Assembly (NCBI GenBank): GCA_014240275.1
Contig: JAAZXH010000018.1
Coordinates: forward strand, 1-47,934
Length of the DNA: 47,934 nucleotides
DNA from: Candidatus Peregrinibacteria bacterium
Lineage (GTDB): Bacteria; Patescibacteriota; Gracilibacteria; UBA1369; GCA-2718715
Direction of reading: 5' to 3'
Program-made: the position numbers and the translations under genes
Shown: positions 4,016 to 44,986 of the stretch, piece after piece
How the letters are laid out: every line of letters starts with the position of its first letter
How positions within the stretch are numbered: the stretch's first letter is position 1
Notes under the pieces: model-generated
Database searches by the model: none
What the model saw: only the letters and a program-made list of their open reading frames with translations
What the model was told of the DNA's origin: nothing

Positions 4016-4705
4016 CTACCAACCTTTAATTATCAAAGCTTTACGAGCTGCATCTTGCTCAGCTTTTTGCTTGGAACTTCCTGAACCAGTTGCTATTAAT
4101 TGTTCGTTTAAGTACACTCCCATATGGAAATTTTTGCTGTGATCAGGCCCGGCTTCTTTTTCTAATTTATAAACTGGTGTGGTGTTTTCTTGGCTTTGGG
4201 CTTCTTCTTGAAAGCGAGTTTTAGCACTAATGTGAGATTTGGTCGACATAATCTTTTCTAGAGAAGGCGTAATGTAGTCTAAAATAAAGCGTCTAGCTTT
4301 TTCTAAACCTTTGTCTAAGAAAATTGCCCCAATTAAGGACTCCATTACATTTGCTAAAATATAATCTTTAAATTCACCCTGTGAAGACTTTTCACCAGCT
4401 GAAAGTAAAATGCAATTATTAAGCTGAATCTTATTGGCAACTTCTGCGAGATGTGACCCTTTAACTAGGGCTGAACGTAGGCTTGTAAGCTCACCTTCAT
4501 CCTTATATACTTTTTCGTATAAATGCTCGGTAACTACCAATTCCAAAACAGCATCACCCAAAAACTCTAAACGTTGATTAGACTCAAGACTAGGTAGATT
4601 TTTTTCGTGAGTATAAGAGGCATGTCGAAAAGCGATCTCATACAAGCTCATATCATTTGCTTGGATCTTAATACTTTTTAAAAAGTCTGCTATGTTATTG
4701 GGCAT
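4016..4705 (-). CDS. rnc: Ribonuclease III
   Basis: Cleaves double-stranded RNA during rRNA maturation and mRNA turnover. The 229-residue frame has the catalytic signature NQRLEFLGDAVLEL (43-56, with Glu47 and Asp51), a second acidic helix ending in MESLIGAIFLD (Glu122), and a C-terminal double-stranded RNA binding domain (about 158-225) with the KQKAEQDAARKAL helix. Length is typical. I chose the ATG at 4705, which overlaps the end of nusB by 11 bases and begins just before the first helix; a start at 4735 is also open. It is last in the group DUF177, rpmF, nusB, rnc, all concerned with ribosome and rRNA production. Confidence 0.95.
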   Translation of the reverse strand: MPNNIADFLKSIKIQANDMSLYEIAFRHASYTHEKNLPSLESNQRLEFLGDAVLELVVTEHLYEKVYKDEGELTSLRSALVKGSHLAEVANKIQLNNCILLSAGEKSSQGEFKDYILANVMESLIGAIFLDKGLEKARRFILDYITPSLEKIMSTKSHISAKTRFQEEAQSQENTTPVYKLEKEAGPDHSKNFHMGVYLNEQLIATGSGSSKQKAEQDAARKALIIKGW

Positions 4706-5141
4706 TAGCTTTGGGTTTAGAAAGTGATTGGGCACCTAACTTGGCTTCAGCAACTTTAGATAAAACGGCGTTAATAAACTTAGAAGAATTTTCAGTTCCA
4801 AACTCTTTGGCAAGTTCAATAGCCTCATTGATGGCTACTAAGGCTGGAGCTTGTTGAAAGTATAAAATTTCAGTTAAACCTAGGCATAAAATTAGTTTAT
4901 CAGCAACAGCTATCTTGTCTAAAGGCCATTCTGGAGCATATTCCTGTATCAGTTCCTCACTTTCTAGCATAGAATCATTAACAGCTTTATGTAGGTCTTT
5001 GGCGAACTTAACATCTGGTAAATTGATTCCAAAATTATCAATCATATATTGAAGGAAACCTGATTGTTCATCAGGTTGATAGTGTTCTGCAAATAAAGCT
5101 TGAAACACAAGTTGACGGGAAAGATGTCGAAAGCTAGGCAT
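4695..5141 (-). CDS. nusB: Transcription antitermination factor NusB
   Basis: NusB binds the boxA RNA with ribosomal protein S10 and prevents premature termination of rRNA transcripts. This 148-residue protein has the expected all-helical pattern: an N-terminal R-x2-VFQALF segment, a central segment around EWPLDKIAVADKLIL, and the family signature INEAIELAKEFG followed by FINAVLSKV. It starts 4 bp after rpmF and its end overlaps rnc by 11 bases, so the three are probably translated together. Confidence 0.92.
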   Translation of the reverse strand: MPSFRHLSRQLVFQALFAEHYQPDEQSGFLQYMIDNFGINLPDVKFAKDLHKAVNDSMLESEELIQEYAPEWPLDKIAVADKLILCLGLTEILYFQQAPALVAINEAIELAKEFGTENSSKFINAVLSKVAEAKLGAQSLSKPKANAQ

Positions 5142-5145
5142 AAGT

Positions 5146-5370
5146 TTAAGCCTTAATAGTTGTAATATCTGATTTGGAAGCTGGGTCTAAGATTTGCTTA
5201 CCATTGTACTTACCACATTCTGAACAAACGTGATGATTGCGGATTACCGCTGAACAATGTTTACAATTTACTAAACTGAGTTTTTGTAACTTAGCAACTT
5301 GTTTTTGAACGTAAGCCTTATGTCTTGTTTTAGTTACTCCCTTGGATGTTTTCTTTTTTGGAACTGCCAT
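5146..5370 (-). CDS. rpmF: 50S ribosomal protein L32
   Basis: A 74-residue ribosomal protein beginning MAVPKKKTSKGVTKTR, the usual basic L32 N-terminus, and carrying a zinc ribbon of two pairs, CKHC and CSEC, separated by RNHHV. It keeps all four zinc ligands. It follows the DUF177 gene, the order seen in many bacteria, but a good promoter lies in the 58-bp gap so it can be expressed independently. Confidence 0.95.
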   Translation of the reverse strand: MAVPKKKTSKGVTKTRHKAYVQKQVAKLQKLSLVNCKHCSAVIRNHHVCSECGKYNGKQILDPASKSDITTIKA

Positions 5371-5393
5371 GGTATTTATTTAAAAGCTTTTTG

Positions 5394-5422
5394 ATTTTAC
5401 ACAGCTTTTTGATAAATTGCAA
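5394..5422 (-). promoter_or_regulatory. Promoter of rpmF-nusB-rnc
   Basis: Minus strand: -35 TTGCAA (5417-5422), 17-bp spacer, -10 TAAAAT (5394-5399). Transcription would start near 5387, about 17 bases before the rpmF ATG. It allows ribosomal protein synthesis to be uncoupled from the envelope operon upstream. Confidence 0.55.
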
Positions 5423-5428
5423 GATTTT

Positions 5429-5887
5429 TTAAAAAAGGTCTTTTAGGTTCTTAAAGGGCTGATTACCAGAATTATCAATTTTATTTAATGGCTTAGAACC
5501 CGGTTTATAAAAAACAGACGGAATAGACAATAAAATGGCTTCGTTGAGAACCGGCTCTAGGTCTATCTCTCCAGACTTATGGTTGATCATCTGGTACTCC
5601 TCTAAATCTTCATGCTCAGGTACTTCAATATAAAAGTGGGTTTCGGTTGGGGTGGTTGTAATCTCAGTTGTAAAAGCTTCAAGAGTTCTACCACAAATAG
5701 CCTGCCCAGCTATCGTTTGCTCTGGAATTAAAACTGCCAAACCATGTGGAACTCGGTATATTTCAAATTCCATTTTTTGATTTTTATCTAAGGTAAAATC
5801 TTCAACTTTTTCTAAGGCTATATCAACTTCTTTCTGAAACTTAGTACCAGAATGGGAATTTAAAATTTCTCCAATTTTTATAAACAT
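5429..5887 (-). CDS. DUF177 (YceD-like) protein, rRNA-processing partner of rpmF
   Basis: A 152-residue protein of the DUF177/YceD family, which is linked to 23S rRNA accumulation in bacteria and plastids and is usually encoded beside rpmF, as here. The family normally has a CxRCL motif; in this copy the equivalent site reads AICGRTLEAF, so one Cys remains and the second is Thr. The C-terminal part has the characteristic IDLEPVLNEAILLSIPS helix. It begins 9 bp after the FemAB-like gene and may be read through from the envelope operon. Confidence 0.8.
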   Translation of the reverse strand: MFIKIGEILNSHSGTKFQKEVDIALEKVEDFTLDKNQKMEFEIYRVPHGLAVLIPEQTIAGQAICGRTLEAFTTEITTTPTETHFYIEVPEHEDLEEYQMINHKSGEIDLEPVLNEAILLSIPSVFYKPGSKPLNKIDNSGNQPFKNLKDLF

Positions 5888-5896
5888 AAATTTTAG

Positions 5897-6916
5897 TTAG
5901 AATCCTCTTTTAATTTTTCGAAACATTTCTACAATAAAGTTAATTAGATACTTGTATGAAAGGATCTTATCGTGAGCTGGAATTAAAGCTCTATGTTCCC
6001 CGGAAAACCCCTTTTTAAAAGTTGTAATACCTTTAAATGGGTGCTTGCGACTATTAGGAGGTGCTATACCCCAAAAATTGTAGTACTTAAAGCCCTCCTC
6101 GTACGCGTCAGAAATAGCCTGAAATTGAAGTAGATAAGAAGCTGGAATCTTAGGGTGTTTCAAATTAGAAGCCCCATGTTTATACACAGCGTGGGTGCCA
6201 TTAAAAAAATGCATACTAGCCGCCACCACTTCGGAATCATAATAAGCTTTGTAGATACGAACCCCACGCTTTTGAAAAGCTTGAAACTCTTGTAAGAGAT
6301 ACTGGTACGAAAAGGGCGTAAAATTGTGGCGTTTAGCAGTTTCATTTAATAAATCTGATAAAACTCTGACGTCTTTGACATCCTGGCTTTTGACGATAGT
6401 CACCCCCTGACGGTGCGCACGTTTAATCAAATTCCGATGGTTTTGGCGCATACCTTTTAATAGTAATTCAGGTGGTTGGTCTAGCTTTAAAAACCAACAA
6501 TCTTCGGCTATCATATGCATTGGTGCTTTGATTAAACCTGCTTTTTTAAACCACTTATAAATTGAGTCTTGTTTGGTGTAAAAAGGAGAAATCCGAATAA
6601 AATTGACTGCATATTTGTTTTTAAGTTGAGATAATGAGTCTAAGAAAAGTTTAAAGTCTGCGTACTTAGCCTGCTTTGATACTAAAGGCCCGTAAGGCAG
6701 ATAAATAAAGTTGCCCCGTTTGGCAATGACAATAAAAGTCACTGCACCCAATACGATTTTGCCCTTTTGTTGGACTGTAACTATTTGAAAATCATCTCCA
6801 GTGTTTTTGTAAAAATCACCATAGGCTTTGGTTTGAACATAAATTTGATGTTCAAATTGATTTAGAAACTGCTGCCAGTCTCCGGCTTTGGTATTAAGAT
6901 TAACTTTACTGTTCAT
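5897..6916 (-). CDS. FemAB-like aminoacyl or peptidyl transferase (GNAT fold)
   Basis: A 339-residue member of the FemAB/FemX family. Known members use aminoacyl-tRNA to add amino acids to the lipid II side chain and build peptidoglycan cross-bridges. Seen here: two GNAT-like halves, the family motif with NLIKRAHRQGV around residue 165, and a C-terminal segment with YYNFWGIAP and the GITTFKKGFSG loop typical of the family. Its start overlaps the end of the DegT-like gene by 11 bases. The context with a MurF-like ligase supports a wall role; the amino acid it transfers is unknown. Confidence 0.82.
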   Translation of the reverse strand: MNSKVNLNTKAGDWQQFLNQFEHQIYVQTKAYGDFYKNTGDDFQIVTVQQKGKIVLGAVTFIVIAKRGNFIYLPYGPLVSKQAKYADFKLFLDSLSQLKNKYAVNFIRISPFYTKQDSIYKWFKKAGLIKAPMHMIAEDCWFLKLDQPPELLLKGMRQNHRNLIKRAHRQGVTIVKSQDVKDVRVLSDLLNETAKRHNFTPFSYQYLLQEFQAFQKRGVRIYKAYYDSEVVAASMHFFNGTHAVYKHGASNLKHPKIPASYLLQFQAISDAYEEGFKYYNFWGIAPPNSRKHPFKGITTFKKGFSGEHRALIPAHDKILSYKYLINFIVEMFRKIKRGF

Positions 6917-8102
6917 GAAACTTGTTAATTAACTGCGCAATTTTCTTTGCATCTTTAATTCTCGTTTGTAAGTTTACGGGCAGACCCACCAGTTGTAAAG
7001 CAAGTTGCCTGGCTTCTTCACATTTTTGGCTATAAGCGTCTAATGTAGCATTTTGAAATTTAGGCACGAAATTTGTAAAACTCCAACTTAAATTTATATA
7101 AATTCCATGCTGTTTTAGATACTGAGCTAATTTTTTTGGATCCTTTGTTTTCACAGGAAAGAATAAACCTTGAGGTGTTGCATGACTTAAGACCTGTAAA
7201 TTTTTATTTATACTTTTTTTATATATATTAAATAGTTGCTTGCGATAATGATAATGTCTTGGGAATTGTTTTAAAGCTTGCAAGCAAGTTAAGATCTGAA
7301 TCTTTGGTAATTTAAAATAATTAATACCTTTGATCTTAGAAGTTTTTTCCACTCTAGAGACTTGCTGAAGTGATCTTGGATTATACTTTAAAAACTTTGC
7401 CATAAGGGCTCCGATCCCACACCTATATAATCTCATAATTAAATAAACCATGAACATGCGTATGCAAGAAAACCAATTAATCAGCCAAGGTAGAGGCTTA
7501 AACTTTGTGACTATACGATATTTAGTTTTGTTAATTAATGCTCCCCCATAACTGCTGGCAAATAACTTATTAGAACCGAAACTTAATAGTACTAGATCTC
7601 CTTTTTCTCCAGTTTTAGGGTTGTAATAAGCGTGCGCTAAATCCTCAAATATGAATACCTTGTGATGTTTTAGCTTGCTTTCTATTTCTTCTATCTTTTG
7701 ATATTCACCAAAGGTGTGTTGTAAAAAGAAAACTAAGGTACTGGCATTTATTTGCTCAGAAGCTAGACTTTGATTCATTTGTAAGCTATTTTTTTTAAGA
7801 TCGACAAAGACTGGTTTTAAACCTGCCTTAAGCACTGCATTTACTACTACCTTACAGGTATAGGCTGGTATGATAACTTCATTTTTTTTAGGATACTCTT
7901 TCTTGAGACACAGCAAGCTAGCGTAAACCAAACTGCGAGCTCGCAAGGCATAGTGGACGCTTTGAATATTCGGGTAAAGTTCAAATAATTCCTGTTTAAA
8001 ATCTTGCTCTAATTTTGACTGAGTAGTGAAAACTCTCAACCAGTTTAGAAAAGTTTGTAACTGAAGATTAGGATTCAATACTCCAAATACCTTATGCTGC
8101 AT
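6906..8102 (-). CDS. DegT/DnrJ/EryC1/StrS-like PLP aminotransferase
   Basis: A 398-residue PLP enzyme of fold type I. The DegT family motifs are visible: VIIPAYTCKVVVNAVLKAG (substrate-side helix), FEDLAHAY (the Asp that contacts the PLP ring) and SFGSNKLFASSYGGALI (Lys for the Schiff base). Family members mostly transaminate nucleotide-linked keto-sugars to make amino sugars for polysaccharides and glycoproteins. The C-terminal third is divergent, so the substrate is uncertain. It overlaps its neighbours by 11 bases on each side, which ties it to the MurF-like and FemAB-like steps. Confidence 0.8.
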   Translation of the reverse strand: MQHKVFGVLNPNLQLQTFLNWLRVFTTQSKLEQDFKQELFELYPNIQSVHYALRARSLVYASLLCLKKEYPKKNEVIIPAYTCKVVVNAVLKAGLKPVFVDLKKNSLQMNQSLASEQINASTLVFFLQHTFGEYQKIEEIESKLKHHKVFIFEDLAHAYYNPKTGEKGDLVLLSFGSNKLFASSYGGALINKTKYRIVTKFKPLPWLINWFSCIRMFMVYLIMRLYRCGIGALMAKFLKYNPRSLQQVSRVEKTSKIKGINYFKLPKIQILTCLQALKQFPRHYHYRKQLFNIYKKSINKNLQVLSHATPQGLFFPVKTKDPKKLAQYLKQHGIYINLSWSFTNFVPKFQNATLDAYSQKCEEARQLALQLVGLPVNLQTRIKDAKKIAQLINKFHEQ

Positions 8103-9597
8103 ATTTTTCGATTAAATTTTGTGTACGCTGATACTGTCTTCCAGAAACGTAAACCAAGTCGTACTCTCTAAAATGTTTTGCTAAAAACTCTAGTTGTTTA
8201 TTCAGATCAGCAATTGTGATAACATTGTCGGAATTAATAGATTTTTCTAAAGATTTAGTTAAGACTGTGTGTTGGCAAATTTTAGAGGAAAGCTCTAAAA
8301 CCTTATCATGTTCTTTGCTTGTACTATCCCCTAATTCTATAAAACCTGAAAAAACAAATAATTTAGATGTATCCGGAAAATATTCCTGCATTAAACTTAG
8401 CATAGAAGAAACCCCAGCCGTAGTTGCGTTGTAGGTATCTAGAATTACTTGTGGGTTTGTACCAGAAATTTGCACAGCAAAAGCATTGGGGTCTAAATTG
8501 TCTAAACCATGTTGGATTTCTTGAGAACTTAATCCAAGGTTTAGGCCAGCCAGAATTGCTAAACTGAGGTTAGCCTGCAAATGTGGGGCAAAAACATTAG
8601 CCTGATATCTGTGGTCTCGAACTTGCACCTTTAGGTGAGGTAAGGCAGACAGTAAATTGTAATCTGAGTTGTCTTTAGCAAAAGTTTGGTAATTTTCTTG
8701 TTTAGGTAAATACTGAAAAAGCTTCTGAGGTACTGCATCTTGGTTTAGTAGGATCTTTCCGTTTTGACGCATGTTAGAAAAAATTTCTAACTTAGCATGC
8801 ATTAATTTTTCTAAAGACCCAAACAAACTCAAATGCTGATTACTAACAGCTGTTAAAATTGCTAAGTCTAAAGGTGTAATTTGTAATACCTTCTTGATCT
8901 CACCTTGTTTATAGGTTCCAATTTCTAGCAATAAAACTTGATGTTTAGCTTTCAGTTTTTTAAGAATTAGTTTTGCAATTCCAATTTCAGTATTAATATT
9001 TCTGGGTGTGACTAATAATTCGTATTTGCTAGCCAAGATATGGTGCAAAAAGGATTTGGTAGAAGACTTACCAAAAGAGCCAGTAATACCTACTACTTTT
9101 AGGTCTGGAAACTTAGCTAATTTCCGCTTCGCTCTGAAAATATAAACTTCTTTCAAACCATAATTAAGTGGAATTAAGATACAAACCAAAAAACTGGCTA
9201 AAGGTGCACTGAAAGCTAAGTTAAAAAACGCCCCAAACTGATAGTTTAGAAAATGTAAACTAATTAGCAATGCACAAATCACAAGTACTTTAGCCGTGGG
9301 TTTTGGCCGGTATAACCCAATATACCTAAAAAGAAATAGATTAGCCAGCAAACAAAGAGAGCTGCCAAAAGAGTCTAGATGAAAAAGTACCATATAACAC
9401 GAAATAAGAAAGAGCACTGGTGAGAGCGGGCTAAAAAATTTCTGCCAGCCGTTTTCATATCTAAATAGACAATAAATTCTATCTAAACGAAAATTCTTAA
9501 CTTGCATAAAATGTAAAAAACGCAAATTTTGGATAACTAAAACTAAAAATAGTAAAGTTAGGTTAAGATTCAAGAAAGTAAGAGCGGGATAGGTCAT
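8092..9597 (-). CDS. MurF-like Mur ligase with N-terminal membrane helices
   Basis: An ATP-dependent amide ligase related to MurF, which adds D-Ala-D-Ala to the UDP-MurNAc peptide. The N-terminal 140 residues hold several hydrophobic helices in place of the UDP-binding domain. The central domain has the P-loop GITGSFGKSSTK (a variant of GSNGKTT), NINTEIGIAKLIL, EIGTYKQGEI, and a Lys in MHAKLEIF equivalent to the carbamylated Lys. The C-terminal domain has DTYNATTAG and IELGDSTSKEH, as in MurF. I chose the ATG at 9597, which keeps the first helix; 9630 is also open. It overlaps the hydrolase gene by 35 bases. It could be the organism's MurF or a paralogue acting on a lipid-linked substrate. 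Confidence 0.82.
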   Translation of the reverse strand: MTYPALTFLNLNLTLLFLVLVIQNLRFLHFMQVKNFRLDRIYCLFRYENGWQKFFSPLSPVLFLISCYMVLFHLDSFGSSLCLLANLFLFRYIGLYRPKPTAKVLVICALLISLHFLNYQFGAFFNLAFSAPLASFLVCILIPLNYGLKEVYIFRAKRKLAKFPDLKVVGITGSFGKSSTKSFLHHILASKYELLVTPRNINTEIGIAKLILKKLKAKHQVLLLEIGTYKQGEIKKVLQITPLDLAILTAVSNQHLSLFGSLEKLMHAKLEIFSNMRQNGKILLNQDAVPQKLFQYLPKQENYQTFAKDNSDYNLLSALPHLKVQVRDHRYQANVFAPHLQANLSLAILAGLNLGLSSQEIQHGLDNLDPNAFAVQISGTNPQVILDTYNATTAGVSSMLSLMQEYFPDTSKLFVFSGFIELGDSTSKEHDKVLELSSKICQHTVLTKSLEKSINSDNVITIADLNKQLEFLAKHFREYDLVYVSGRQYQRTQNLIEKYAA

Positions 9598-10300
9598 ATA
9601 TTTTTTTCGGATAATGAATGTGCAAGCCATGATTGGCTCCTCTAATAATAGTCAAAAAAGCATTTATAAGCAAGTCACGCATACGATAGGCCATATACAA
9701 AGGGGTGTAGGTATCTTTATTTCCGAATACCAGGTGTATTGGTGTTTCTATCAGCTGTAAGTCTGAACTTAAATCTTCTGAAATCACTTTAGTAAACGTA
9801 GCTTTTAATTTAGGATCAGAAATCTGATTATAATCTTTGGAGCTGAGTATACGTTGGCCAATTTGACGCATGCCGGGCACGGCCTTAAGAAAACTCAGGA
9901 GCTGGCTGAGCATACGTTTGAAGCGTTCTAAGACAGTCAAACGATAAGGTAGGCCTGCAGCACCTAAGAAGACTGCTCTTTTGACACTACACTGTAGTTT
10001 AGAAATTAAGAGTGTGGCTATTTTACAGCCAAATGAGTGGGCTAAAATAAAGTCCGTTTTTAGATTATGTTTTTTGAGTACTTTTTGAATATATTGAGCA
10101 TATTCTAAGGTGGAAGAGGTAGACTTAAGCGGAAAATCTAAGCCTGGCAAATACATAAAAACCCATTTGAATTGTTGATCTTTGCTACAAAGCTGGCAAA
10201 AATTACTCCAAGATTTTTCTGTATTAAATCCCCAACCGTGTAAAATTATGACGGTTTTAGGCCCATGGCCAAAGATTTTGTATGCAGCAGTTTTATTCAT
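9563..10300 (-). CDS. Alpha/beta hydrolase
   Basis: A 245-residue alpha/beta-fold hydrolase. Visible elements: the oxyanion segment ILHGWGFN near residue 20, the nucleophile elbow AHSFGCK (Ser), the acid in FGNKDTYTP, and the catalytic His in GANHGLH close to the C-terminus. The triad is therefore complete. It starts 8 bases inside the upstream gene and ends inside the MurF-like gene. A hydrolase so tightly linked to a Mur ligase might trim an activated peptide or ester, but that is inference; no signal peptide is present. Confidence 0.8.
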   Translation of the reverse strand: MNKTAAYKIFGHGPKTVIILHGWGFNTEKSWSNFCQLCSKDQQFKWVFMYLPGLDFPLKSTSSTLEYAQYIQKVLKKHNLKTDFILAHSFGCKIATLLISKLQCSVKRAVFLGAAGLPYRLTVLERFKRMLSQLLSFLKAVPGMRQIGQRILSSKDYNQISDPKLKATFTKVISEDLSSDLQLIETPIHLVFGNKDTYTPLYMAYRMRDLLINAFLTIIRGANHGLHIHYPKKIYDLSRSYFLES

Positions 10301-11873
10301 TGTTAAAACTAAAATTAATGTTATCAGATTGCTCAGGGAGCGTCGGCGCCCAGAACGGTTGTAAGGCTACACTTTGGACCGTGAGATTCTGTAAGGAACT
10401 CAGGTGGTCTTTAGCTTGATCTATTGTGAGGTTTTTTAGGTACTGCTTTTCTGGGTCTAGATTTTGACTCACCCACTTAGCTTTACTCACATCAAAAGTT
10501 TCTGTGGCGTATATGTTGAAAATGATTTGGTCAAAACTTTCTCCATTTTCAATTTTTGGTCTTTGCTTTTCTATGTTTATGTTATGCAAATCAATGCTTG
10601 AAAGCAAATAATTGGGGGTGGTTTGCTTATTAAGAAAAGATTTAATGTTTTTAAATAGTTTTTTTTGATCAATGAGTTGGATTTCTAAATCTGGTTTGAG
10701 AACCAGAAAAAACTCCCCATGGCTTGAGAGACGAGTATCATCAATTGCATAATCTAAGTCAACTAGCTCTAAAAACTGTGGGTTTTCTAATAATATAAAT
10801 TCCTGACTGCTACTTTTTGCTAGATGTATCTTGGTGATTTTAAAGATATTCTGATTAAAATCGGCTTTGGCATAATCTAGTGCCGCCTGCTTTTGCTCCA
10901 TATTTAATACAAAGTCCTTACGGGTTGTAAGGTTCGCAATGGCCTGCTCGGTTACAAGTTGTAATTCTGGAAACTGCTTAGTGGTCAATATAGAACCTTT
11001 TGACAAGGAAATTTTATCACCAATATAGGATTGCGAAACTGAATAAAGATCTGGTTTAATTAAAGCTGTAGCTTGTCCTGGATTAGTTGATGAACCTGGG
11101 GGTACAATGATCAGTTGTTGATTACGGTACAGCTTACCAGTTTTGGACTTAAAGGCGGTATACGGGTTAATAGAAACTGGATGATCTAGAGGGTTGGAAA
11201 TTTGAGCTTGAAAGCTTGCTACCTCACCTACTTGAGCGGACTGATCGGCCTCAAACCGATAGGATTGTTGAATATCTTGAATCCGGGTTGGTATCAGCTG
11301 AATACCTTTTGAAGATTCATCGTTAAGATTGATTTTCATCACTCTTTCAATCCTATTAGAACGTGGCTCAAAAACAATGGTAGCTTTTGGAGAGGTAATG
11401 TAAACGGTTGAAAACACCACTAAGGCGATTACCAAACAGGCCCTGACAAGGTCTTTCCAGTTAAATTTAGTTAAAACTTGAGACTTTTTCCAAAAACAGA
11501 ATAAGTTTTTAAGAGTTTCAAATTCCTGATTGGGAGTTAAAACTTCATCAAACTTTTGCATAACTTGAGGCGAAGACTTGATCTTAGCTATCTTCTTAAT
11601 TTGAATACCATAGGCTTTTAAAGTCATAAAGGTCAGCTTTTGGACAACAATAATTTGAAAATTAGCTTTTAAGTCCTTGAGAACCTGGTCTAAAATACGG
11701 AGTTTTGAAATTTCAAACTCAGTAAGAACCTCCTTTTGCAAGTGCAACTCTAAGCGTGAATCTGGAAATCTACGTAAAATACTTTTGCATATAGATTTAT
11801 ACTGTAAGGGATTTAATTTTAAATCTAAAATTAAATTAAAAATATGTGACTGGGGATTCTGAAAGAGACTCAT
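10293..11873 (-). CDS. Single-pass membrane protein with baseplate-J-like outer domain
   Basis: A 526-residue protein of unclear function. Residues 1-140 are hydrophilic and presumably cytoplasmic, 142-160 form one membrane helix, and the rest is outside. After the helix comes PKATIVFEPRS, then around 216-260 a segment with AFKSKTGKLYR and LIIVPPG. The pattern of a Thr/Ala-Phe-x-Ser, Gly, Arg and VP-containing strand resembles baseplate-J-like extracellular proteins common in candidate-phyla genomes. It starts one base after the PilM-like gene ends, so the ATPase and this protein probably act as a pair. PilN-like function in a pilus platform is the alternative. Confidence 0.55.
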   Translation of the reverse strand: MSLFQNPQSHIFNLILDLKLNPLQYKSICKSILRRFPDSRLELHLQKEVLTEFEISKLRILDQVLKDLKANFQIIVVQKLTFMTLKAYGIQIKKIAKIKSSPQVMQKFDEVLTPNQEFETLKNLFCFWKKSQVLTKFNWKDLVRACLVIALVVFSTVYITSPKATIVFEPRSNRIERVMKINLNDESSKGIQLIPTRIQDIQQSYRFEADQSAQVGEVASFQAQISNPLDHPVSINPYTAFKSKTGKLYRNQQLIIVPPGSSTNPGQATALIKPDLYSVSQSYIGDKISLSKGSILTTKQFPELQLVTEQAIANLTTRKDFVLNMEQKQAALDYAKADFNQNIFKITKIHLAKSSSQEFILLENPQFLELVDLDYAIDDTRLSSHGEFFLVLKPDLEIQLIDQKKLFKNIKSFLNKQTTPNYLLSSIDLHNINIEKQRPKIENGESFDQIIFNIYATETFDVSKAKWVSQNLDPEKQYLKNLTIDQAKDHLSSLQNLTVQSVALQPFWAPTLPEQSDNINFSFNNE

Positions 11874-12821
11874 TTAAAAGTTCAGGTTATAGACTTTTAA
11901 TAATCGGTTAATTTGCTCATTGACATTGTACCCCTTGTTACTCCGTTTGTTAAGATAGAAGCGCTCAAAACAATATAAATTGTTATAAATACTTAAGCTT
12001 GAGCCGAGTTCATCGGATAAGTGAAGAATTTTCAAATCAGGGTCAGCTTCGTAGAGTTTTCGGATCAATTCTGGTACAAAACTCCCACCACCGGTTAAAT
12101 ATAGGGTTTGTACATTTTCTAAATTTAACTTTTCAAATAATCCTCGCGCAAATTTACGAGCGGCTTGCTGACAAATTTCCAACTGCTTAGAATTTAAAGT
12201 TGCAGGATGTTTCAAATAATCTAATGCTAATTCAAAGGCTGGATCCGAACTAATTTTGGCATATTCTTGAATCATTTCTACAAATAAAGCAAAACCAACT
12301 TCGGCTTTTAGACGGGTTTCAATATTATGATTTACAATTTGCAAAAGATAAGTTTGATAATGGCCAACATCTAATAGGCTGACTTTTTTAGCATTTAAAC
12401 ACGAATAAGCAATTTCGGCTGGGTAGAACTCCACCTGCAGACCTTGAAAAACTCCTTTAATGGCATCCATCTCTGATTCTTTGGCATTAGTCTCATACAA
12501 TGAAAGTTGTGCGTTGTCATGTGGCAAGTTGGCATAAAAAAACTTCCCCTGCAATTGCTGAAACTGCTTCTCCACCTCTAATATTAAACCTTTTGAAAGC
12601 TGCTTACTAGATAGGTCCAGAGTTTTGATTTGATAATAATCATCAGGTAGGAAAAACAAGACTCTGTTTATACCTTCGGCTTGAAATAGTTCTTTCAACA
12701 CCTTTAGATCATCTAGCAAATCAACCAAATTTAATTCAAAGCACCGCAGTTCTTGAATGGGTTTTTTCAGGGCATATTTAATGAACTTGGAACCAAGATC
12801 TACAATGGCAAATTCAGACAT
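11874..12821 (-). CDS. PilM/FtsA-like actin-fold ATPase
   Basis: A 315-residue actin-fold protein. The N-terminal phosphate loop is AIVDLGSKFIKYAL, the second phosphate motif is SLLDVGHYQTYLL (about 168-180), and the adenosine motif is LTGGGSFVPELI near 268. This spacing matches PilM, the cytoplasmic ring protein of type IV pilus platforms, more than FtsA because the 1C-domain insertion is short. The frame is open to a TTG at 12917, but the ATG at 12821 begins right before the first motif and lies about 13 bases after a predicted transcription start. First gene of a six-gene leftward operon. Confidence 0.75.
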   Translation of the reverse strand: MSEFAIVDLGSKFIKYALKKPIQELRCFELNLVDLLDDLKVLKELFQAEGINRVLFFLPDDYYQIKTLDLSSKQLSKGLILEVEKQFQQLQGKFFYANLPHDNAQLSLYETNAKESEMDAIKGVFQGLQVEFYPAEIAYSCLNAKKVSLLDVGHYQTYLLQIVNHNIETRLKAEVGFALFVEMIQEYAKISSDPAFELALDYLKHPATLNSKQLEICQQAARKFARGLFEKLNLENVQTLYLTGGGSFVPELIRKLYEADPDLKILHLSDELGSSLSIYNNLYCFERFYLNKRSNKGYNVNEQINRLLKVYNLNF

Positions 12822-12840
12822 ATCTTTTTTTAGTAACTTA

Positions 12841-12869
12841 ATTCTACTAGGGCTGGCCTTTATTTTGAA
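12841..12869 (-). promoter_or_regulatory. Promoter of the PilM-to-FemAB envelope operon
   Basis: Minus strand: -35 TTCAAA (12864-12869), 17-bp spacer, -10 TAGAAT (12841-12846). Transcription would start near 12834 and the ATG chosen for the PilM-like gene is at 12821. No further promoter-like gap exists before 5.9 kb, so all six genes probably share it. Confidence 0.55.
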
Positions 12870-12910
12870 TTGCCTAAAGTACCCAATTGTGATGCAATTT
12901 AGAATTACAG

Positions 12911-12939
12911 ATGACAATTGTGGTAAGGCCGCTTATAAT
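12911..12939 (+). promoter_or_regulatory. Promoter of the secreted fibre-like protein gene
   Basis: A consensus -10 TATAAT (12934-12939) is preceded at 17 bp by a weak -35 ATGACA (12911-12916). It would give a leader of about 18 bases. It is divergent from the envelope operon promoter some 45 bp away. Confidence 0.45.
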
Positions 12940-12963
12940 AATTTTGTTAATTAAATTTCCCAA

Positions 12964-13602
12964 ATGAACAAATTTTATTTATTTTTAAACATTTTGATAT
13001 TAGCCTTAGCCAGCGGCTACGCAGCCGTCAACCCTCCGGAAGGTGAAGTAAGCCCAAACTTTAGCGATGTTGGAGTTGAAGGAACTTTGGCAACTGATCA
13101 AATCGAAGCTAATAGCGGCAATTCGATCAACATTGCGGATGATGTTGATATCTCTGGAAATCTCAGCACTGAAGATGTTAGTATTCAGGGAGATTTAAAA
13201 GTAGATACTATCAAGTCAAGGGATACTGAGATGGCCGTTGTCATAGATGACGATCTACTTATCAATGATAGATTACAAGCCTCCTCCGTTACAGCTACTA
13301 CCATAGGTAATTTTAAAACATTTCGTAGAGATGCTCATTCTGGTTATTTAAACTCTAGTTGTCCAGAAGGTACTTTCCTAGTAAGTTGTAGAGGATGGTC
13401 AAAATACCCAAGGACCTATACCGGAATGGGATCTTTAATGAATAGATCTGTCCTAAGTTCTAATGTAACCTGTTCCTCTAAAATACAAATAATCCCAGGC
13501 GAAGCTGCACTAGCAAATGGCCTTAAATATCACGCGCATACTTACACCTGTTTTGACCCGCGAGCACGTTTTGATACTGATTTTGAAAATATCACAAATT
13601 AA
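12964..13602 (+). CDS. Secreted fibre-like protein with Cys-rich C-terminal domain
   Basis: A 212-residue secreted protein without a recognised family. Residues 1-21 form a signal peptide ending SGYAA. Residues 25-110 contain short Asn/Asp/Gly-rich beta repeats of the kind GNLSTEDVSIQGDLKVDTIK, which look like one side of a beta-solenoid or phage-fibre shaft. The last 100 residues form a different domain with four Cys (SSC, VSC, VTC, YTC) that could make two disulfides. It is transcribed away from the PilM/baseplate-J operon, so it could be a surface fibre linked to that apparatus. No LPxTG-like motif is present. Confidence 0.6.
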   Translation: MNKFYLFLNILILALASGYAAVNPPEGEVSPNFSDVGVEGTLATDQIEANSGNSINIADDVDISGNLSTEDVSIQGDLKVDTIKSRDTEMAVVIDDDLLINDRLQASSVTATTIGNFKTFRRDAHSGYLNSSCPEGTFLVSCRGWSKYPRTYTGMGSLMNRSVLSSNVTCSSKIQIIPGEAALANGLKYHAHTYTCFDPRARFDTDFENITN

Positions 13603-16342: not shown

Positions 16343-17449
16343 ATGAAAGTTGCTATCGTCCATGAATTTTTAATGACTATTGGAGGGGCCGAAAAAGTCT
16401 TAGACAGTCTACTAAAACTTTACCCTGACGCTAAAGTTTTTACTCTAATGTATAAACAAGACGTGGTGGATGAAATGCAAATCAAAGCAATCGAAGCTAG
16501 CCCTTTGCAAAAACTACCTAACTTCTTTAAAAAACGTAGTAAATTCTTACTTCCTCTTTTTCCAATGATGGTAGAAAATTTTAACTTTAATGAATATGAC
16601 TTAGTAATTAGCAGTTCTAATTCTTTTGCTCATGGTGTCATTACTCGACCAGACTGTCTGCATGTCTGCTACTACCATTCTCCAATGCGCTATGTATGGG
16701 ATAGTTTTTTTAGTTACTTTGAGGAGCAAAAGTTTAATTTTTTGATGGGCTATGTAGTAAAAAAAATCTTACATAAGCTTCGTCAATGGGATCTGATAGC
16801 AAGCTTCCGACCAGATGTACGTATAGCGAACTCCCAAACTGTCGCTGATCGAATTCTTAAATTTTATCGGCAAGACACTGATGCTGTGATTTTTCCTCCA
16901 GTTACTATGCCAGCTAAATCTGATCTAACTAAAACAGAAGAATATGCCTTGGTTGTTTCGCGACTCTCACCGTATAAAAAAATTGATCAAGCTATACTAG
17001 CCTGTAAAAAACTTGGCCTCAAATTAAAAATTGCTGGAACCGGACAAGATAGAGATCGCCTAGAAGCTATGGCTGATAAGAACGTGGAATTTCTTGGGAA
17101 GATTACCGAGGCCAAAAAATGGGAACTGATGCACGGTGCATCGGCCTTTTTATTTCCTGGAATTGATGACTTTGGTATAACTCCAGTCGAAGCTATGGCT
17201 TCCCAAACTCCTGTGGTAGCCTTTGCCCAAGGTGGTGCAACAGAGACAGTAATAGACCAAGTCACGGGCACATTATATGCAGAACAAACTACGGACTCCC
17301 TCGCACAGGCTTTGCAAACCACTATTGAGAAACAAGAACAATTTCAGTCTAAAAAGCTTCGACAACACGCCGAAAAATTTACAAGCTCTCACTTTGAATC
17401 AAAATTTAAAAAATTAATTAATGACTCTATATCGAAAATATCGACCTAA
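16343..17449 (+). CDS. GT4-family glycosyltransferase
   Basis: A 368-residue GT-B glycosyltransferase. The N-terminal domain begins KVAIVHEFLMTIGGAEKVL with the glycine-rich donor loop; the C-terminal domain has VVSRLSPYKKID, and the donor-binding E-x7-E-like motif FGITPVEAMASQTPVVAF. The pattern is closest to mannosyl- or rhamnosyl-transferases of surface polysaccharide pathways (WbaZ-like), but donor and acceptor cannot be read from sequence. Its last 29 bases overlap dnaX in another frame, and the two are likely cotranscribed. Confidence 0.85.
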   Translation: MKVAIVHEFLMTIGGAEKVLDSLLKLYPDAKVFTLMYKQDVVDEMQIKAIEASPLQKLPNFFKKRSKFLLPLFPMMVENFNFNEYDLVISSSNSFAHGVITRPDCLHVCYYHSPMRYVWDSFFSYFEEQKFNFLMGYVVKKILHKLRQWDLIASFRPDVRIANSQTVADRILKFYRQDTDAVIFPPVTMPAKSDLTKTEEYALVVSRLSPYKKIDQAILACKKLGLKLKIAGTGQDRDRLEAMADKNVEFLGKITEAKKWELMHGASAFLFPGIDDFGITPVEAMASQTPVVAFAQGGATETVIDQVTGTLYAEQTTDSLAQALQTTIEKQEQFQSKKLRQHAEKFTSSHFESKFKKLINDSISKIST

Positions 17450-18986
17450 AAGTTTTTCAGAAATGGTCGGGCAAGAAGCTATTGTAAAAACTCTTACACA
17501 AGCCGCCATTTCTAACAATCTGTCACACGCCTACCTCTTTGCAGGCCCACGTGGAACCGGTAAAACTAGCACTGCTCGGATTATTGCAAAAATACTCAAT
17601 TGTACAGATCTAAAATCTGCCGAACCATGCCTGAAATGTGAAAACTGCCTAGGAATTGAATCTGGCCAAATGACTGATATTTTAGAAATAGATGCTGCCT
17701 CCAACCGCGGTATTGATGAAGTTAGACAACTAAAAAATAGCCTACAGTTTGCTCCAAGTTATGCAAAAAAAAAGGTCATCATTATTGATGAAGTCCATAT
17801 GTTAACCTTTGAAGCCTTTAATGCTCTTTTAAAAACATTAGAAGAACCACCGCCCTACGTACACTTTGTACTTGCCACCACGGAACTACATAAAGTTCCA
17901 GCTACTATTAAGTCACGATGCCAGATTTTTAATTTCAGTGAAGTTAGCCTAACACAGTTAGTTAAACACTTAGAGAACATTTGTAAAAAAGAACAATTAA
18001 AATATGAAACAGCGGCCTTAGAGCTAATTGCAGAAATGGCAAATGGCGGGGTTCGAGACAGCCTGAGTATTTTACAAAAGGTGGCTAACTTAGAAGAAAT
18101 TAAATTTCAAGAAACTCTTGAAATGCTCGGCGTAAACTTTATGCAGGATGCGAAAGATTTAAGCCAAGCTGTATTAGATATAGACACTCAACGATGTGCA
18201 GAAATTTGTGCACGTCAAAAAAATGCTGGTTGTGACCCTAAAGCTTTTGCCAAGCAGGTCGTGGACCAATGGCACCAACTTCTAAATCAGTCGGTTATAG
18301 ATAAAAGCCCACAGCTATCTTTAATTGCGCAAACCTTAAATCAATTTTATGAACTGGAATCCAACTTAGCTCATTCTCACTATTACTGGAGCACTTTTGT
18401 TATTCTTACGAGTTTACTTGACCCTGCCTCAGCAGTACAAGCTATCTCCCCTCCAAAAGTTGTTGCCCAAGCAGTGTTGCAGCCTAAGCTTAGCTCAAAA
18501 GCTGGTCCAACTCCCTCACAGCAAATTACTCCAGTGACGCCTATTGCTGTAAAGAAAACAGAGGCTAAGGAGCAACGTTCAAAAATTCTTACAGCTAATC
18601 CAAAGCCTAAGGTGGTCACTGTACAAGCTGAACGCAAGCAGCAAGCTGTTGTAAACTCCAAGCCGGGAGATGTTGATAGATTTATTAATGGTTTTGCTGA
18701 GATAAGAAAATCTGTCGATAATCCTAAATTGAAGCGCCTGTTGGCTCAAGTAAAGCTAGTGAAAACTGCTACTGGCTTAGAACTACAAATGACTTCAGAT
18801 TTTTTCTTATCACAATTAAAGGCGCCAGAACCACAAATGAGTTTGCAAAAGGTTTTTGCCCAACATGGTTTAGAAGGTCGTATTTCTTACGGACTCACCT
18901 CGAATGCTGCACAAAGCACATCAGAAACTATTCAACAAGTTGAAGAGGTAGCAGAATTTTTTGGAGGAGAAATTACTGATGACTAA
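17421..18986 (+). CDS. dnaX: DNA polymerase III subunit gamma/tau
   Basis: The clamp-loader ATPase, 521 residues. It starts MTLYRKYRPKSFSEMVGQ, with Walker A GPRGTGKTSTA (about 43-53), a zinc site of four Cys (NC, PC, KCENC), Walker B VIIIDEVHML and the sensor motif SRCQIF. Domain III and a Pro/Lys-rich linker lead to a C-terminal tau-like region. The start overlaps the glycosyltransferase by 29 bases. The gene ends interlocked with ligA: its TAA (18984-18986) shares two bases with the ligA stop on the other strand. Confidence 0.95.
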   Translation: MTLYRKYRPKSFSEMVGQEAIVKTLTQAAISNNLSHAYLFAGPRGTGKTSTARIIAKILNCTDLKSAEPCLKCENCLGIESGQMTDILEIDAASNRGIDEVRQLKNSLQFAPSYAKKKVIIIDEVHMLTFEAFNALLKTLEEPPPYVHFVLATTELHKVPATIKSRCQIFNFSEVSLTQLVKHLENICKKEQLKYETAALELIAEMANGGVRDSLSILQKVANLEEIKFQETLEMLGVNFMQDAKDLSQAVLDIDTQRCAEICARQKNAGCDPKAFAKQVVDQWHQLLNQSVIDKSPQLSLIAQTLNQFYELESNLAHSHYYWSTFVILTSLLDPASAVQAISPPKVVAQAVLQPKLSSKAGPTPSQQITPVTPIAVKKTEAKEQRSKILTANPKPKVVTVQAERKQQAVVNSKPGDVDRFINGFAEIRKSVDNPKLKRLLAQVKLVKTATGLELQMTSDFFLSQLKAPEPQMSLQKVFAQHGLEGRISYGLTSNAAQSTSETIQQVEEVAEFFGGEITDD

Positions 18987-20992
18987 GATGGCAGCCAATT
19001 AATAAATTCTTGTTCAGATACCGTTTTTACTCCAAGCTTATTAGCTTTCTCAAGTTTGGATCCAGCTTTTTCACCATAGACTAAATAGTCAGTCTTTTGA
19101 CTCAAACTCGATGGCGTCTTACCTCCTAGTAAGCGAACTTTTTCTTGAGCTTGATCGCGCGTTAACTGTTTGAGACTTCCGGTAAATACAAAACTCAACT
19201 TACTAAATTTGGAACTTTGATTAGTGCTTGGTGGCGACAGAAAACTAATGCCATATTGCGAAAAATCTTGTAAAAGCTCCTGGTTGAGTTCTTCTTGAAA
19301 CCAGGCATAGACACTGGCTGCGATCACGGCCCCTATTCCTTCGATTCCCAATAAAGATTCCTGGTCTAATTTAGATAATAACTCGGATAGCTCAGCTGGG
19401 TTGTGAATATTTTGTTGAGCATATAAAAATTGACTTAAGTCTAAGGCTGCCTTTTCACCTAAATGTCGAATATTTAGTGCAAACAGAAACTTCGGTAGAG
19501 GCACCTGTTTACTCTTTTGGATTTCAGATATTAGGTTTTCGATTTTTTTCTCGGCAAAACTAGGTAGGCCTGCTAGATCAACAGATTGAAGTTTATAAAG
19601 ATCGGCTGGGCTACTTAATAGTTTTTCTTGCAGTAAAAGCTCTAGGCTTTTGACAGCTAGTCCTTCGATATTAAGCCCTTTCTTGGAAACGAAGTGCTTG
19701 AGTCCAGCTAAAACCTGAGCACTACAATTCGGATTCTTGCAACGTAGGGCCGCCTGACCAGGATCTCGCTGAACCGTACTCCCGCAGGCTGGACAAATAG
19801 TCGGTAGAGTATAGGGCTGAGCATTTTTAGGACGCATATCCTGCAAGACCTCCACAACTTCTGGAATAATATCGCCAGCTTTTTGAATAACTACCGTATC
19901 TCCTATGCGAACATCTTTTTTATCGATTTCATCCTGGTTGTGTAAAGTGGCCCGTGAAACTACTGATCCATCTATCAAAGTTGGTTCTAAATAAGCTACT
20001 GGGGTTAATACTCCAGTTCTGCCAACTTGAACCTGAATATCTAAAACTTGAGTGAGTTTTTGGCTAGCGGGAAACTTATAAGCCGCTGCAAAGCGTGGAC
20101 ATTTGACTGTATGACCAAGTTTGGCATGTAACGCTAAGTCGTTAATTTTGACAGCTAATCCGTCTATTTCGTAAGGGAAACTGTCTTTTTGTTCTTGCAA
20201 GAGCTGAATTTGTTCGCCAAGAGACTTGGCATCTTGGACTAAAATATTTTTAGACTGAACCATAAAGCCTAATTTCTTTAAGTCATTTAATAATTTGGAT
20301 TGAGTTTGGGCCGGTTTTAAATTGTTAGAAACTCCTATTTGGTAAGCAAAAAACTGTAATTTTCGTTCCGCTGCAACTCTTGCATCAATTTGACGAATTG
20401 AACCAGACGCTAAATTTCTGGGATTCATATACTTTAATTCTTGTTCTGAATTCAGTTTTTCAAAATCAGCCCTTAAAATACATACCTCTCCCGTTACCTC
20501 ACAATCAATGTTTTGGTTGAGTTTGCTTGGTACGCTGGTAATAGTTGAAACCGTATGGGTTACATCTTCACCAATTTTACCGTTGCCCCTGGTTAAAGCC
20601 TTGTAAAATTCACCGTTTTTATACCAAACCGTAATGTTCAAACCATCAATTTTAGGTTCGATACTAAGAGGCAAAAAAGACTCTGAGGAATTTAACTTAC
20701 GGATAGCTTTTGCAAAAAATGCTAGTAGCTCTTCTATGTTAAAGCAATCCTGAAGAGAGTATTTTTTGGATTGATGAGGGTGTTTTGTGAATTTTTCTGA
20801 CAAACCGGAACCGATATTTTGACTTGGCGAATCAGGACTGATAAAACTCGGATGAGCCGCTTCGAGCTCTAGCAACTCTTTTTTTAATTGATCCCGTAGA
20901 CTTTCTGGAAACAGGAGTTTGTCTTCTAAAAAATAGGCTTGATTCCATTTGATTAACTGCTCTTTAACTTGCTGATAACGAGTTTGATTCAT
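18983..20992 (-). CDS. ligA: NAD+-dependent DNA ligase
   Basis: Seals nicks in DNA using NAD+. The 669 residues match the normal length. Present: adenylation Lys114 in EPKIDG, TRGNGKIGED, EVTGEVCI, NPRN with GSIRQID, an OB-fold, a four-Cys zinc site (CPACG and CKNPNC), helix-hairpin-helix repeats and a C-terminal BRCT domain (about 590-669). Domain Ia, which binds the nicotinamide end of NAD+, departs from the E. coli pattern: of Tyr22, His23, Asp32, Tyr35 and Asp36, this protein shows Tyr20, Phe21, Glu30, Arg33 and Asp34. Promoter boxes TTGAAA-17-TATATA (21030 to 21002) lie just upstream. Confidence 0.95.
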   Translation of the reverse strand: MNQTRYQQVKEQLIKWNQAYFLEDKLLFPESLRDQLKKELLELEAAHPSFISPDSPSQNIGSGLSEKFTKHPHQSKKYSLQDCFNIEELLAFFAKAIRKLNSSESFLPLSIEPKIDGLNITVWYKNGEFYKALTRGNGKIGEDVTHTVSTITSVPSKLNQNIDCEVTGEVCILRADFEKLNSEQELKYMNPRNLASGSIRQIDARVAAERKLQFFAYQIGVSNNLKPAQTQSKLLNDLKKLGFMVQSKNILVQDAKSLGEQIQLLQEQKDSFPYEIDGLAVKINDLALHAKLGHTVKCPRFAAAYKFPASQKLTQVLDIQVQVGRTGVLTPVAYLEPTLIDGSVVSRATLHNQDEIDKKDVRIGDTVVIQKAGDIIPEVVEVLQDMRPKNAQPYTLPTICPACGSTVQRDPGQAALRCKNPNCSAQVLAGLKHFVSKKGLNIEGLAVKSLELLLQEKLLSSPADLYKLQSVDLAGLPSFAEKKIENLISEIQKSKQVPLPKFLFALNIRHLGEKAALDLSQFLYAQQNIHNPAELSELLSKLDQESLLGIEGIGAVIAASVYAWFQEELNQELLQDFSQYGISFLSPPSTNQSSKFSKLSFVFTGSLKQLTRDQAQEKVRLLGGKTPSSLSQKTDYLVYGEKAGSKLEKANKLGVKTVSEQEFINWLPS

Positions 20993-42220: not shown

Positions 42221-44986
42221 ATGAAATATATAAGAATTGCTGTTATCAGCATGTTTTGTTTGGCACTTAACATCAGCTTGGCAAAAGCCGATTTTGTGCA
42301 AAAAGTTAATTTAAATCAAAAGTCTAACGCGGTCATACTCGAAGTGCCGGCAGACTTGGACCATCCGGAGTTATCAGTCCAAGCTGGTGATCAAGATGAG
42401 GTACATATTAGTTTTGAAAAAATTGGGACTAAGTACACTACTATTTTCAATTACAACCCTACCGACCAATTAAGGTATCATGCCAATTTTGATTTAAAAT
42501 TACTGTGGCGAGAATACATTACCTATAAACCTGAGCTGCTAGCTGGACCATACACCCTACCGGGTGGAAAAATTATAAGCCGATCTGAATGGGGTGCAGA
42601 CGAAAGCCTCACTTATCGCAGCCAAAAATATGCAGGCCACTCTCTTAAGTTTTATGCTGATAGTGTGAACCATCCAGAAATTGACCGAGTAGATATGTAT
42701 GATGGAGACAGGATCTTAACTTGGCCTAAAGAATATGCAAAATATATTCGGGGAGTTGTTTTGCATCATACTGCTACAACTCGAGAACTAGATAATCCAA
42801 CCCAAGCTGTTCGTAACATTTACAATTACCACAGTAAACATTTAAAATGGGGTGATGTAGGTTACCACTTTTTAATTGCTCCTAATGGTCAAATTTTTGA
42901 AGGCCGCAAGGGTGGCAAAGCAGTAATTGGAGGCCACACTCCAGCTTTAAATAAAACTACAATTGGAATTGCGGTGCTTGGAAACTATCAAGATGAACCG
43001 CCAAGCCAGGAGGCTTTGCATAGCGTAGAGTTTTTGATTTCGGCTTTAAGTCACGAATATGGTTTAGATCCTAAGTCTAAATTTATATACAAACAAAAAG
43101 CATACCCGGTAGTTTCAGGACACCGAGACAGCGACCATACTTTGTGCCCTGGAGAGTTTTTTTACGATCTTATACCTGGGATACTCAACAACGTTGTAAA
43201 TCTAAAAGGTGGGAATTTTGCCACCCTCCCTCCTCAGCTGGCAGCTTTTGAATCGTATAAGCCTAACTACAAATATAAAATCTTACTAAGAAATTCGGGT
43301 AAAGAAACCTGGCAAGCCGACAAGACTTACCTATTAAGAGAGTCAGATCAGAAGAAATATTTTATTCCAAAAGATATTAGACGTTTTAAAACAACTAGTT
43401 TTGAACTCGAAGCCTTAAACCTTGAGCCTGGCTTTAATAACCAAGCTTTTAGCTTTTACATTAACGGGAAAATAGAATCCAAAAAAATTAATCAAGCTGT
43501 CATTTATCGAATGCCACCAATTAAGTTAAACGTTAAAATTGCATCAGATAATTTAAAAATTACAAACTTATCAGATCGAACAATAGCAAGTACAGACTTA
43601 ATGGTGATCGACCAAGACGGATACAAGATCAAGGGTCGTTTTTCAAACACACAGATCAATCCATCTCAAACAGTTGATTTTAAATTTACGAAAACTACAG
43701 ACATCAAATCTATGCAAGTGATAACTGCTAAGCGCTATAAACTCTTGGCTAACACTGTTTACCCTGCCCCGTTGAAAAAAGCTAATATCAAGCATTCTAA
43801 TGGGTATGAGTTTGATCTAAAATCGCAAAGCCAGACAATTTATTTAGAATTGCAAAACCCATTAACAACTCAATTTAATACTCGAGACTTAAAGGTGTTT
43901 ACCCTAAAAAAGAAAGCCATATCTGTACAACCTATGCTTAAAAGTCAGTTAATTCGCCCCGGAAAAAGCTTTAAATTAGCACTCAAAGTAACATTACCAG
44001 AATTAAAAAATGAAAACTTAAAACTTAAATTGTATTATAAAGGTAAATCCTTATTTGATAACTTTATAAAGATTCAGTTACAAGCTGGGCCCTCAAACCT
44101 ATCAACCGCAAGCGAACCTGCTAAAACGCATTCACATGCCCATGCTATGCAACCTGAGATTAAAATTTTAATTTCTAAAGCACCTAAAGATAAACTGGTG
44201 CTCAGTAATTCTAAAAATCTAAATATTCCAGAATTAAAAACTAATATCCCAGCAAATCAAAAAATGAGCATTGATCCAAGTTCTAAAGGTGTAAAACTAA
44301 GCTTTGGAAATCAAAATTTTAAGTTAGATAAGTTGGATTTAGATGGCGAAGGTATTTGGACTGTACATAACTATGAAAATCGACCCGGCTGGAATAAAGA
44401 TTTAAACGACAATCGTTTTTTAGGAAGCTTGATAGTCCTTAATAATAACTTACAACTGGAGTTAATTAATCACCTGCCAATTGAAGACTATTTATATGGC
44501 CTGGGAGAAGTTTCAAATAGTGCAGAAGTTGAAAAAATGAAAACTATCATTGTGGCTGCTAGGTCTTATGCATACTTTTATACTCAACATCAGCGGAAAT
44601 TTGGACACACTCGCTTTGATCTAGATGACAGCCCAGAAAGATCACAAAAATACCTTGGCTATGGAATGCAGTTACGGTCTCCGCAAGTTGTGGCGGCAGT
44701 TAAAGCCACTCAAGGAGAAATGGTCAGCTTTAACGCAAAAGTTGTAAAAGTCCCTTACTTTAACCAAAGTGCGGGTCGTACTAAATCTGCGGAAAGTGTC
44801 TGGGGCTGGAAAAACACCCCATACCTAGTGTCAAGACCGGACCCTTACTGCAAAGAAACAGTATTCAAAGGGCATGGAGTCGGCATTTCTGGTTGTGGCG
44901 CAAGTGGTATGGCTCGCGCAAACTTTGACTATAAGGCAATTATCCAATACTATTTACCTGGAGTAAAGCTGGCTAAAATTTACTAG
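42221..44986 (+). CDS. Secreted fusion of PGRP-type amidase and SpoIID-type lytic transglycosylase
   Basis: A 921-residue exported wall hydrolase with two activities. Residues 1-23 are a signal peptide (cut near AKA-DF). An amidase_2/PGRP domain (about 118-320) has zinc ligands His182/183 in VLHHTAT, His301 in SGHRD and Cys309 in TLCPG, and should cut MurNAc-L-Ala bonds. Residues 345-625 look like Ig-like beta-sandwich linkers. A SpoIID domain (about 690-921) has Glu763 in LGEVSN, ARSYAYF (780-786) and GHGVGISGCGASGMA, and should cleave glycan strands. The two complementary activities in one chain recall the SpoIID-amidase pairs of sporulating bacteria. The downstream gene starts three bases later. 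Confidence 0.88.
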   Translation: MKYIRIAVISMFCLALNISLAKADFVQKVNLNQKSNAVILEVPADLDHPELSVQAGDQDEVHISFEKIGTKYTTIFNYNPTDQLRYHANFDLKLLWREYITYKPELLAGPYTLPGGKIISRSEWGADESLTYRSQKYAGHSLKFYADSVNHPEIDRVDMYDGDRILTWPKEYAKYIRGVVLHHTATTRELDNPTQAVRNIYNYHSKHLKWGDVGYHFLIAPNGQIFEGRKGGKAVIGGHTPALNKTTIGIAVLGNYQDEPPSQEALHSVEFLISALSHEYGLDPKSKFIYKQKAYPVVSGHRDSDHTLCPGEFFYDLIPGILNNVVNLKGGNFATLPPQLAAFESYKPNYKYKILLRNSGKETWQADKTYLLRESDQKKYFIPKDIRRFKTTSFELEALNLEPGFNNQAFSFYINGKIESKKINQAVIYRMPPIKLNVKIASDNLKITNLSDRTIASTDLMVIDQDGYKIKGRFSNTQINPSQTVDFKFTKTTDIKSMQVITAKRYKLLANTVYPAPLKKANIKHSNGYEFDLKSQSQTIYLELQNPLTTQFNTRDLKVFTLKKKAISVQPMLKSQLIRPGKSFKLALKVTLPELKNENLKLKLYYKGKSLFDNFIKIQLQAGPSNLSTASEPAKTHSHAHAMQPEIKILISKAPKDKLVLSNSKNLNIPELKTNIPANQKMSIDPSSKGVKLSFGNQNFKLDKLDLDGEGIWTVHNYENRPGWNKDLNDNRFLGSLIVLNNNLQLELINHLPIEDYLYGLGEVSNSAEVEKMKTIIVAARSYAYFYTQHQRKFGHTRFDLDDSPERSQKYLGYGMQLRSPQVVAAVKATQGEMVSFNAKVVKVPYFNQSAGRTKSAESVWGWKNTPYLVSRPDPYCKETVFKGHGVGISGCGASGMARANFDYKAIIQYYLPGVKLAKIY

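Follow-up and report, generated by a model that had tools for sequence, protein, structure and literature searches.

Organization of the locus

The window, by which we mean the whole 47,934-nucleotide stretch analysed here, is contig 18 of a genome of 851 kb that is 79% complete, and absences in this genome are to be read with that figure in mind. It contains six minus-strand open reading frames (ORFs), at 5897-6916, 6906-8102, 8092-9630, 9563-10300, 10293-11873 and 11874-12917. The MurF-like ORF 8092-9630 has an internal ATG at 9597, and the likely ATG of ORF 11874-12917 lies at 12821. Taken by coordinate, the genes overlap by 11, 11, 35 (if the ligase starts at 9597) and 8 bases, and the last two, 10293-11873 and 11874-12917, abut. 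A sequence-only reading of this DNA had described the same overlapping or abutting genes, and its ORF coordinates and overlaps were confirmed, as was a secreted ORF on the plus strand (Table 1). The FemAB-, DegT- and MurF-like identities that it gave to the enzymes also held, with the Mur ligase middle domain matched at 2e-27 in Pfam. The promoter that it placed at 12841-12869 carries no evidential weight, because its match is 9/12 and it lies amid promoter-like sites (43 in the region) at a density near the shuffled background (34 ± 5). The co-directional run extends past 5897; yceD starts 9 bases on and is followed by rpmF, nusB and rnc.

Table 1. Features of the locus in window coordinates.
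Feature	Position	Strand	Basis or remark
yceD, rpmF, nusB, rnc	4016..5887	-	housekeeping genes prolonging the run; conserved beside the site
FemAB-type aminoacyl transferase	5897..6916	-	Pfam 2e-24; 45-46% identity inside the window's family
DegT-type aminotransferase	6906..8102	-	Pfam 1e-25
Membrane-type MurF-like ligase (501 aa; ATP loop preceded by four TM helices)	8092..9597	-	Mur domain match
Alpha/beta hydrolase of the four-gene module	9563..10300	-	Pfam 7e-12; same position in relatives
J, single-pass membrane protein, 526 aa	10293..11873	-	relatives, alignment, TM scan, model of a relative with Foldseek
J transmembrane helix, residues 142-160	11394..11450	-	hydropathy scan
FtsAl, a divergent copy of the FtsA/PilM-type actin-fold protein (315 aa)	11874..12821 (ORF open to 12917)	-	position, relatives, fold
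Repeat-like secreted protein, encoded divergently to the operon	12964..13602	+	proteins at other loci match it weakly

The six genes form two separable blocks, the FtsAl-J pair and a module of four enzymes. Named genomes holding relatives of the window belong to Candidatus Peregrinibacteria and other Patescibacteria, and the six-gene order is confined to the window's own family, where it is complete in genomes G002 and G003 and cut by a contig end in G001. The expectation that all six genes would recur in order in other candidate-phyla genomes was therefore borne out in that family only; the pair is phylum-wide and the enzymes are a module of their own. This module keeps the order hydrolase, MurF, DegT, FemAB in other families too, and in G012 it stands with neither FtsAl nor J in the surrounding 17 kb.

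The FtsAl-J pair

Scanning the named genomes for the FtsAl family gave 80 loci, mostly from Peregrinibacteria; 49 further loci came from more than 40 other Patescibacteria families. J lies directly 3' of FtsAl in 77 of the 80 (the exceptions being L132, at a contig end, L113 and L134) and in 46 of the 49, and a J-like gene was present in 53 of 59 relatives. No pilus genes were seen at L113 or L134. The idea of a dedicated pair of actin-fold and single-pass proteins thus stands, and reaches far beyond this genome. The FtsAl-J pair is real and conserved, and its general kind is familiar; literature searches returned no description of it, nor of baseplate J in candidate phyla.

In fetched loci with the upstream side present, FtsAl is an FtsA/PilM-type protein of about 400-430 aa encoded directly upstream of J. 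PF14450 was matched by 19 of 20 relatives (best 7.7e-20), with a weaker Pfam PilM score (1.3e-9). Local profiles gave the family 62 bits for FtsA and 14 bits for PilM, and a PDB search returned FtsA at 3e-19. By these sequence comparisons the conserved family is nearer FtsA than PilM, which corrects the earlier PilM-like label at the level of the family. The family has a strongly amphipathic C-terminal helix (mean moment 0.78 against a background of 0.40; 0.60 in the window copy), a putative membrane anchor resembling that of FtsA. FtsAl coexists with ordinary FtsA in relatives, and in the window genome the ordinary FtsA adjoins FtsZ.

The window copy is very divergent. Neither it nor the window J has a significant Pfam or NCBIfam match of its own, and it fails the local FtsA profile (-2.6 bits). 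Taken alone, it scores highest against local PilM (28 bits, 2.7e-9), with 6 bits against the FtsAl profile, and a tree puts it next to PilM on a long branch. Its best match is the protein of G002 (31%, 3e-10), which itself hits the FtsAl family at 107 bits, and a profile built from these two recovers the family with up to 70 bits. From synteny and this one bridging relative, we infer that the window gene is FtsAl. In a structural model its C-terminal half matches PilM, ParM, MreB and FtsA, and its N-terminal half is poor. The phosphate-1 and adenosine motifs are retained; ATP hydrolysis appears doubtful because the phosphate-2 motif is altered. The copy also has a gap in the IC region, the binding place of FtsN/PilN-type tails. 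Another protein of the window genome with 32% identity to the actin-like protein (L033) was rejected as a candidate, being RuvX and a fold-level match.

FtsAl of G003 has 65-66% identity to relatives in other families, and those of G000 and G002 have just 18-29% to any. J behaves likewise, with 57% identity between G001 and G003 and 23-29% in pairs involving G000 or G002. NusB, Rnc and FemAB keep 43-57% inside the window's family. In G000 and G002, FtsAl and J thus diverged in step, and these three proteins did not. Cooperating proteins are expected to change jointly, and this pattern counts in favour of FtsAl and J working together.

The window J has a single TM helix, a predicted cytoplasmic N-terminal part and, in its outer part, a baseplate-J-like barrel. 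A relative, L055, gave a confident model (pLDDT 82.9) with an alpha/beta domain at residues 25-102, a flexible linker, a TM-type helix at 190-211 and, beyond it, a large beta-rich outer part. Its barrel of about 110 residues is of the phage baseplate J/GlxA type: Foldseek matched it to Streptomyces GlxA (1.5e-6), phage Mu J (1.2e-5) and phage XM1 (4e-5), and it also resembles J proteins in BFVD. Pfam Baseplate_J reached only 1 of 21 J relatives, and the J profile had no informative hit in the PDB. Unlike phage baseplate J, J is a chromosomal, single-pass membrane protein, and no phage tail genes occur around it or in the neighbourhoods of the 80 and 49 loci. The barrel is a shared, general-purpose domain.

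J also occurs in other settings. In two class-mates with FtsAl undetected (L147, L149), pgk is followed by J (530 aa) and then by a small membrane protein that by eye resembles the SanA/DUF218 type. Four further loci (L152, L154, L157 and L158) have J-like ORFs of 376-390 aa that lack the N-terminal domain and lie beside thrS or dnaE, with no FtsAl adjoining. Because J is found beside pgk, thrS or dnaE without an adjoining FtsAl, it would seem not always to depend on FtsAl.

The four-gene module and its membrane MurF

In Peregrinibacteria, the pair adjoins alr and/or ddl in 42 of the 80 loci and genes of the MurF module in 11, and no locus has both (chance 1e-4, with kinship of the genomes ignored). 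The module therefore occupies the site where relatives keep alr/ddl. As a separate observation, the ORF L044:4518-6899, which adjoins an FtsAl-J pair, encodes two D-Ala-D-Ala ligases fused in tandem (794 aa), and similar frames of ~800 aa occur in several families.

Like MurF, the window ligase has an ATP loop (GITGSFGKS, at residue 170) and the Mur ligase middle and C-terminal domains. It falls under the NCBIfam murF cut-off (176 vs 288.6 bits), is the best MurF of its genome, and forms one clade with other membrane types. Unlike MurF, these enzymes mostly have four or five TM helices ahead of the ATP loop; the N-terminal Mur domain, which binds UDP-MurNAc, was not found in them, and the helices stand in its place. 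Loss of this domain was considered as a trait unique to the module and rejected, as short MurF enzymes are without it too: those of L207-L221, from other Peregrinibacteria families, are about 430 aa long with the ATP loop near the N-terminus.

In the MurF tree, a single branch (97/99) separates all membrane types from the short types of relatives. The best MurF was the membrane type in 10 of 25 genomes, and the short type was seen in none of those 10. D-Ala-D-Ala ligase was undetected in 9 of these 10, save for weak ATP-grasp matches, and was found in 13 of the 15 short-MurF genomes, in some as the tandem fusion. Absence of Ddl differed between the two groups at p 2e-4 by genome and 0.036 by family, kinship weakening both figures. 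The exception, G007, has a membrane MurF together with a tandem Ddl. The window genome also carries a second FemAB gene, directly 3' of ftsZ (L142:6831-7706).

Possible roles of the pair and the module

We propose that FtsAl-J is an FtsA-FtsN-like coupler of wall growth and that the module is an alternative route of stem-peptide completion, a reading to which we give a probability of about 0.5. The first part is suggested because FtsAl is paired with J, has FtsA-type sequence and tail, and recurrently neighbours wall genes. FtsAl would sit at the membrane through its C-terminal amphipathic helix and touch the cytoplasmic part of J, by analogy with FtsA-FtsN and PilM-PilN, where the IA-IC cleft of FtsA or PilM receives the partner (PMC7613929). 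J, crossing the membrane once, would relay the state of FtsAl to its outer domain near wall-synthesis enzymes, on which the beta-rich part may act or which it may recruit. The pair differs from FtsA-FtsN in the bigger cytoplasmic alpha/beta domain and outer J-type barrel of J, and in that an ordinary FtsA is also present.

In the window's family, the module replaces the usual alr/ddl and the other MurF type. The membrane-embedded ligase may give the stem peptide an ending that is not D-Ala-D-Ala, with FemAB attaching amino acids and with the hydrolase and DegT making or trimming a substrate. An altered stem peptide is suggested because membrane and short MurF are mutually exclusive and Ddl is missing in 9/10 carriers of the membrane type. 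Several observations count against this reading as a whole, namely a possibly inherited mltG order, J without FtsAl, the IC gap and altered phosphate-2 motif of the window copy, and the Ddl of G007.

Wall building in ultrasmall candidate-phylum bacteria is largely obscure, and FtsAl-J, at first sight pilus- or phage-like and found across much of the phylum, would be core machinery there. A wider proposal is tentative and rather doubtful: that Patescibacteria have a second FtsA-type complex for wall growth, and that some Peregrinibacteria do without D-Ala-D-Ala, with the module completing another kind of stem peptide at the membrane, possibly on a lipid-linked precursor. Loss of D-Ala-D-Ala in some lineages, if true, bears on the targets of penicillin and glycopeptides.

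It is unlikely, though the point deserves weight, that the pair serves some purpose other than wall synthesis, such as envelope sensing or secretion, and that wall genes lie beside it through an old gene order. Outside Peregrinibacteria, genes typically run alaS, FtsAl, J, ruvX (35/49), mltG (31/49), with mreB, mreC and PBP2 next in some families. The alaS-ruvX-mltG order is like an old order in Firmicutes, and mltG beside the pair may therefore be inherited. Housekeeping genes are neighbours as well (alaS, ruvX, nusB, rnc and yceD, with nusB/rnc adjoining in 36-38 of the 80 loci), and the lineages with J alone and the general-purpose barrel fit such a role. However, wall genes reappear in forms that vary by group, and the recurrence of mltG/mre/PBP2, alr/ddl and the MurF module in independent settings favours a link to the wall.

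A pilus function seems quite improbable. Here FtsAl would be the type IV pilus PilM, or its replacement in this lineage, with J in the role of PilN. PilM is assigned to the pilus (PMC6744442; PMC12206443), and in PilM-PilN, too, an actin-fold gene immediately precedes that of a single-pass membrane protein. The PilM affinity of the window copy, in profile score and tree, speaks for this assignment. The sequence-only reading had noted that pilB and pilC were missing here; both were found elsewhere in the genome, as was a PilT-sized ATPase, and pilC, accompanied by a pilin gene, lies on other contigs. The pilC operon of the window genome contains small membrane proteins, with no PilM at its side, and FtsA is the sole PF11104 match there and in G002, though both have pilC, which is again consistent with a replacement. 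Against it, G003, of the window's family, retains the FtsAl-J pair and has in addition a full pilus operon (PilB, PilC, pilins, a PilO-sized protein and a separate PilM-type protein of 515 aa). About ten relatives carry the pilus PilM as a third, longer protein, which in several shares a contig with pilC. Because relatives, including G003, have a separate pilus PilM, the FtsAl family as a whole is, judged by sequence, not the type IV pilus PilM, and its profile is distant from PilM. Neighbour families of the 80 and 49 loci included no pilN, pilO or pilC, and just 1/80 and 1/49 loci have a pilin-like gene close to the pair. The earlier view that this is not an ordinary type IV pilus operon holds. 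Near the pilC operon are two adjacent large proteins with similar N-termini, L141:13940-16939 (999 aa, with no Pfam match) and 17046-19892 (948 aa).

We consider it very unlikely that the pair is a second FtsA of cell division rather than of general wall growth. FtsA is the closest characterised relative of the FtsAl family and the tail is FtsA-like, but the window genome has its ordinary FtsA beside FtsZ, and the mreB/mreC/PBP2 genes come after the pair in some families. The surface apparatus or fibre of the sequence-only reading is highly improbable: the barrel of J is of phage-baseplate type and a family related to the secreted protein is often close by (24/80 loci), but the bacterial enzyme GlxA has the same barrel, no export or assembly genes recur, and the secreted gene, on the opposite strand here, is a frequent Peregrinibacteria neighbour, not a constant one.

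Two further ORFs were noted. In L142:1897-4224, an aconitase-family ORF, the N-terminus duplicates that of a release-factor-2-like ORF downstream (4392-5474), and the ORF is either a chimera or an assembly artefact. Within the window, 42221-44986 encodes one 921 aa protein that combines Amidase_2 and SpoIID domains, two wall-lytic types.
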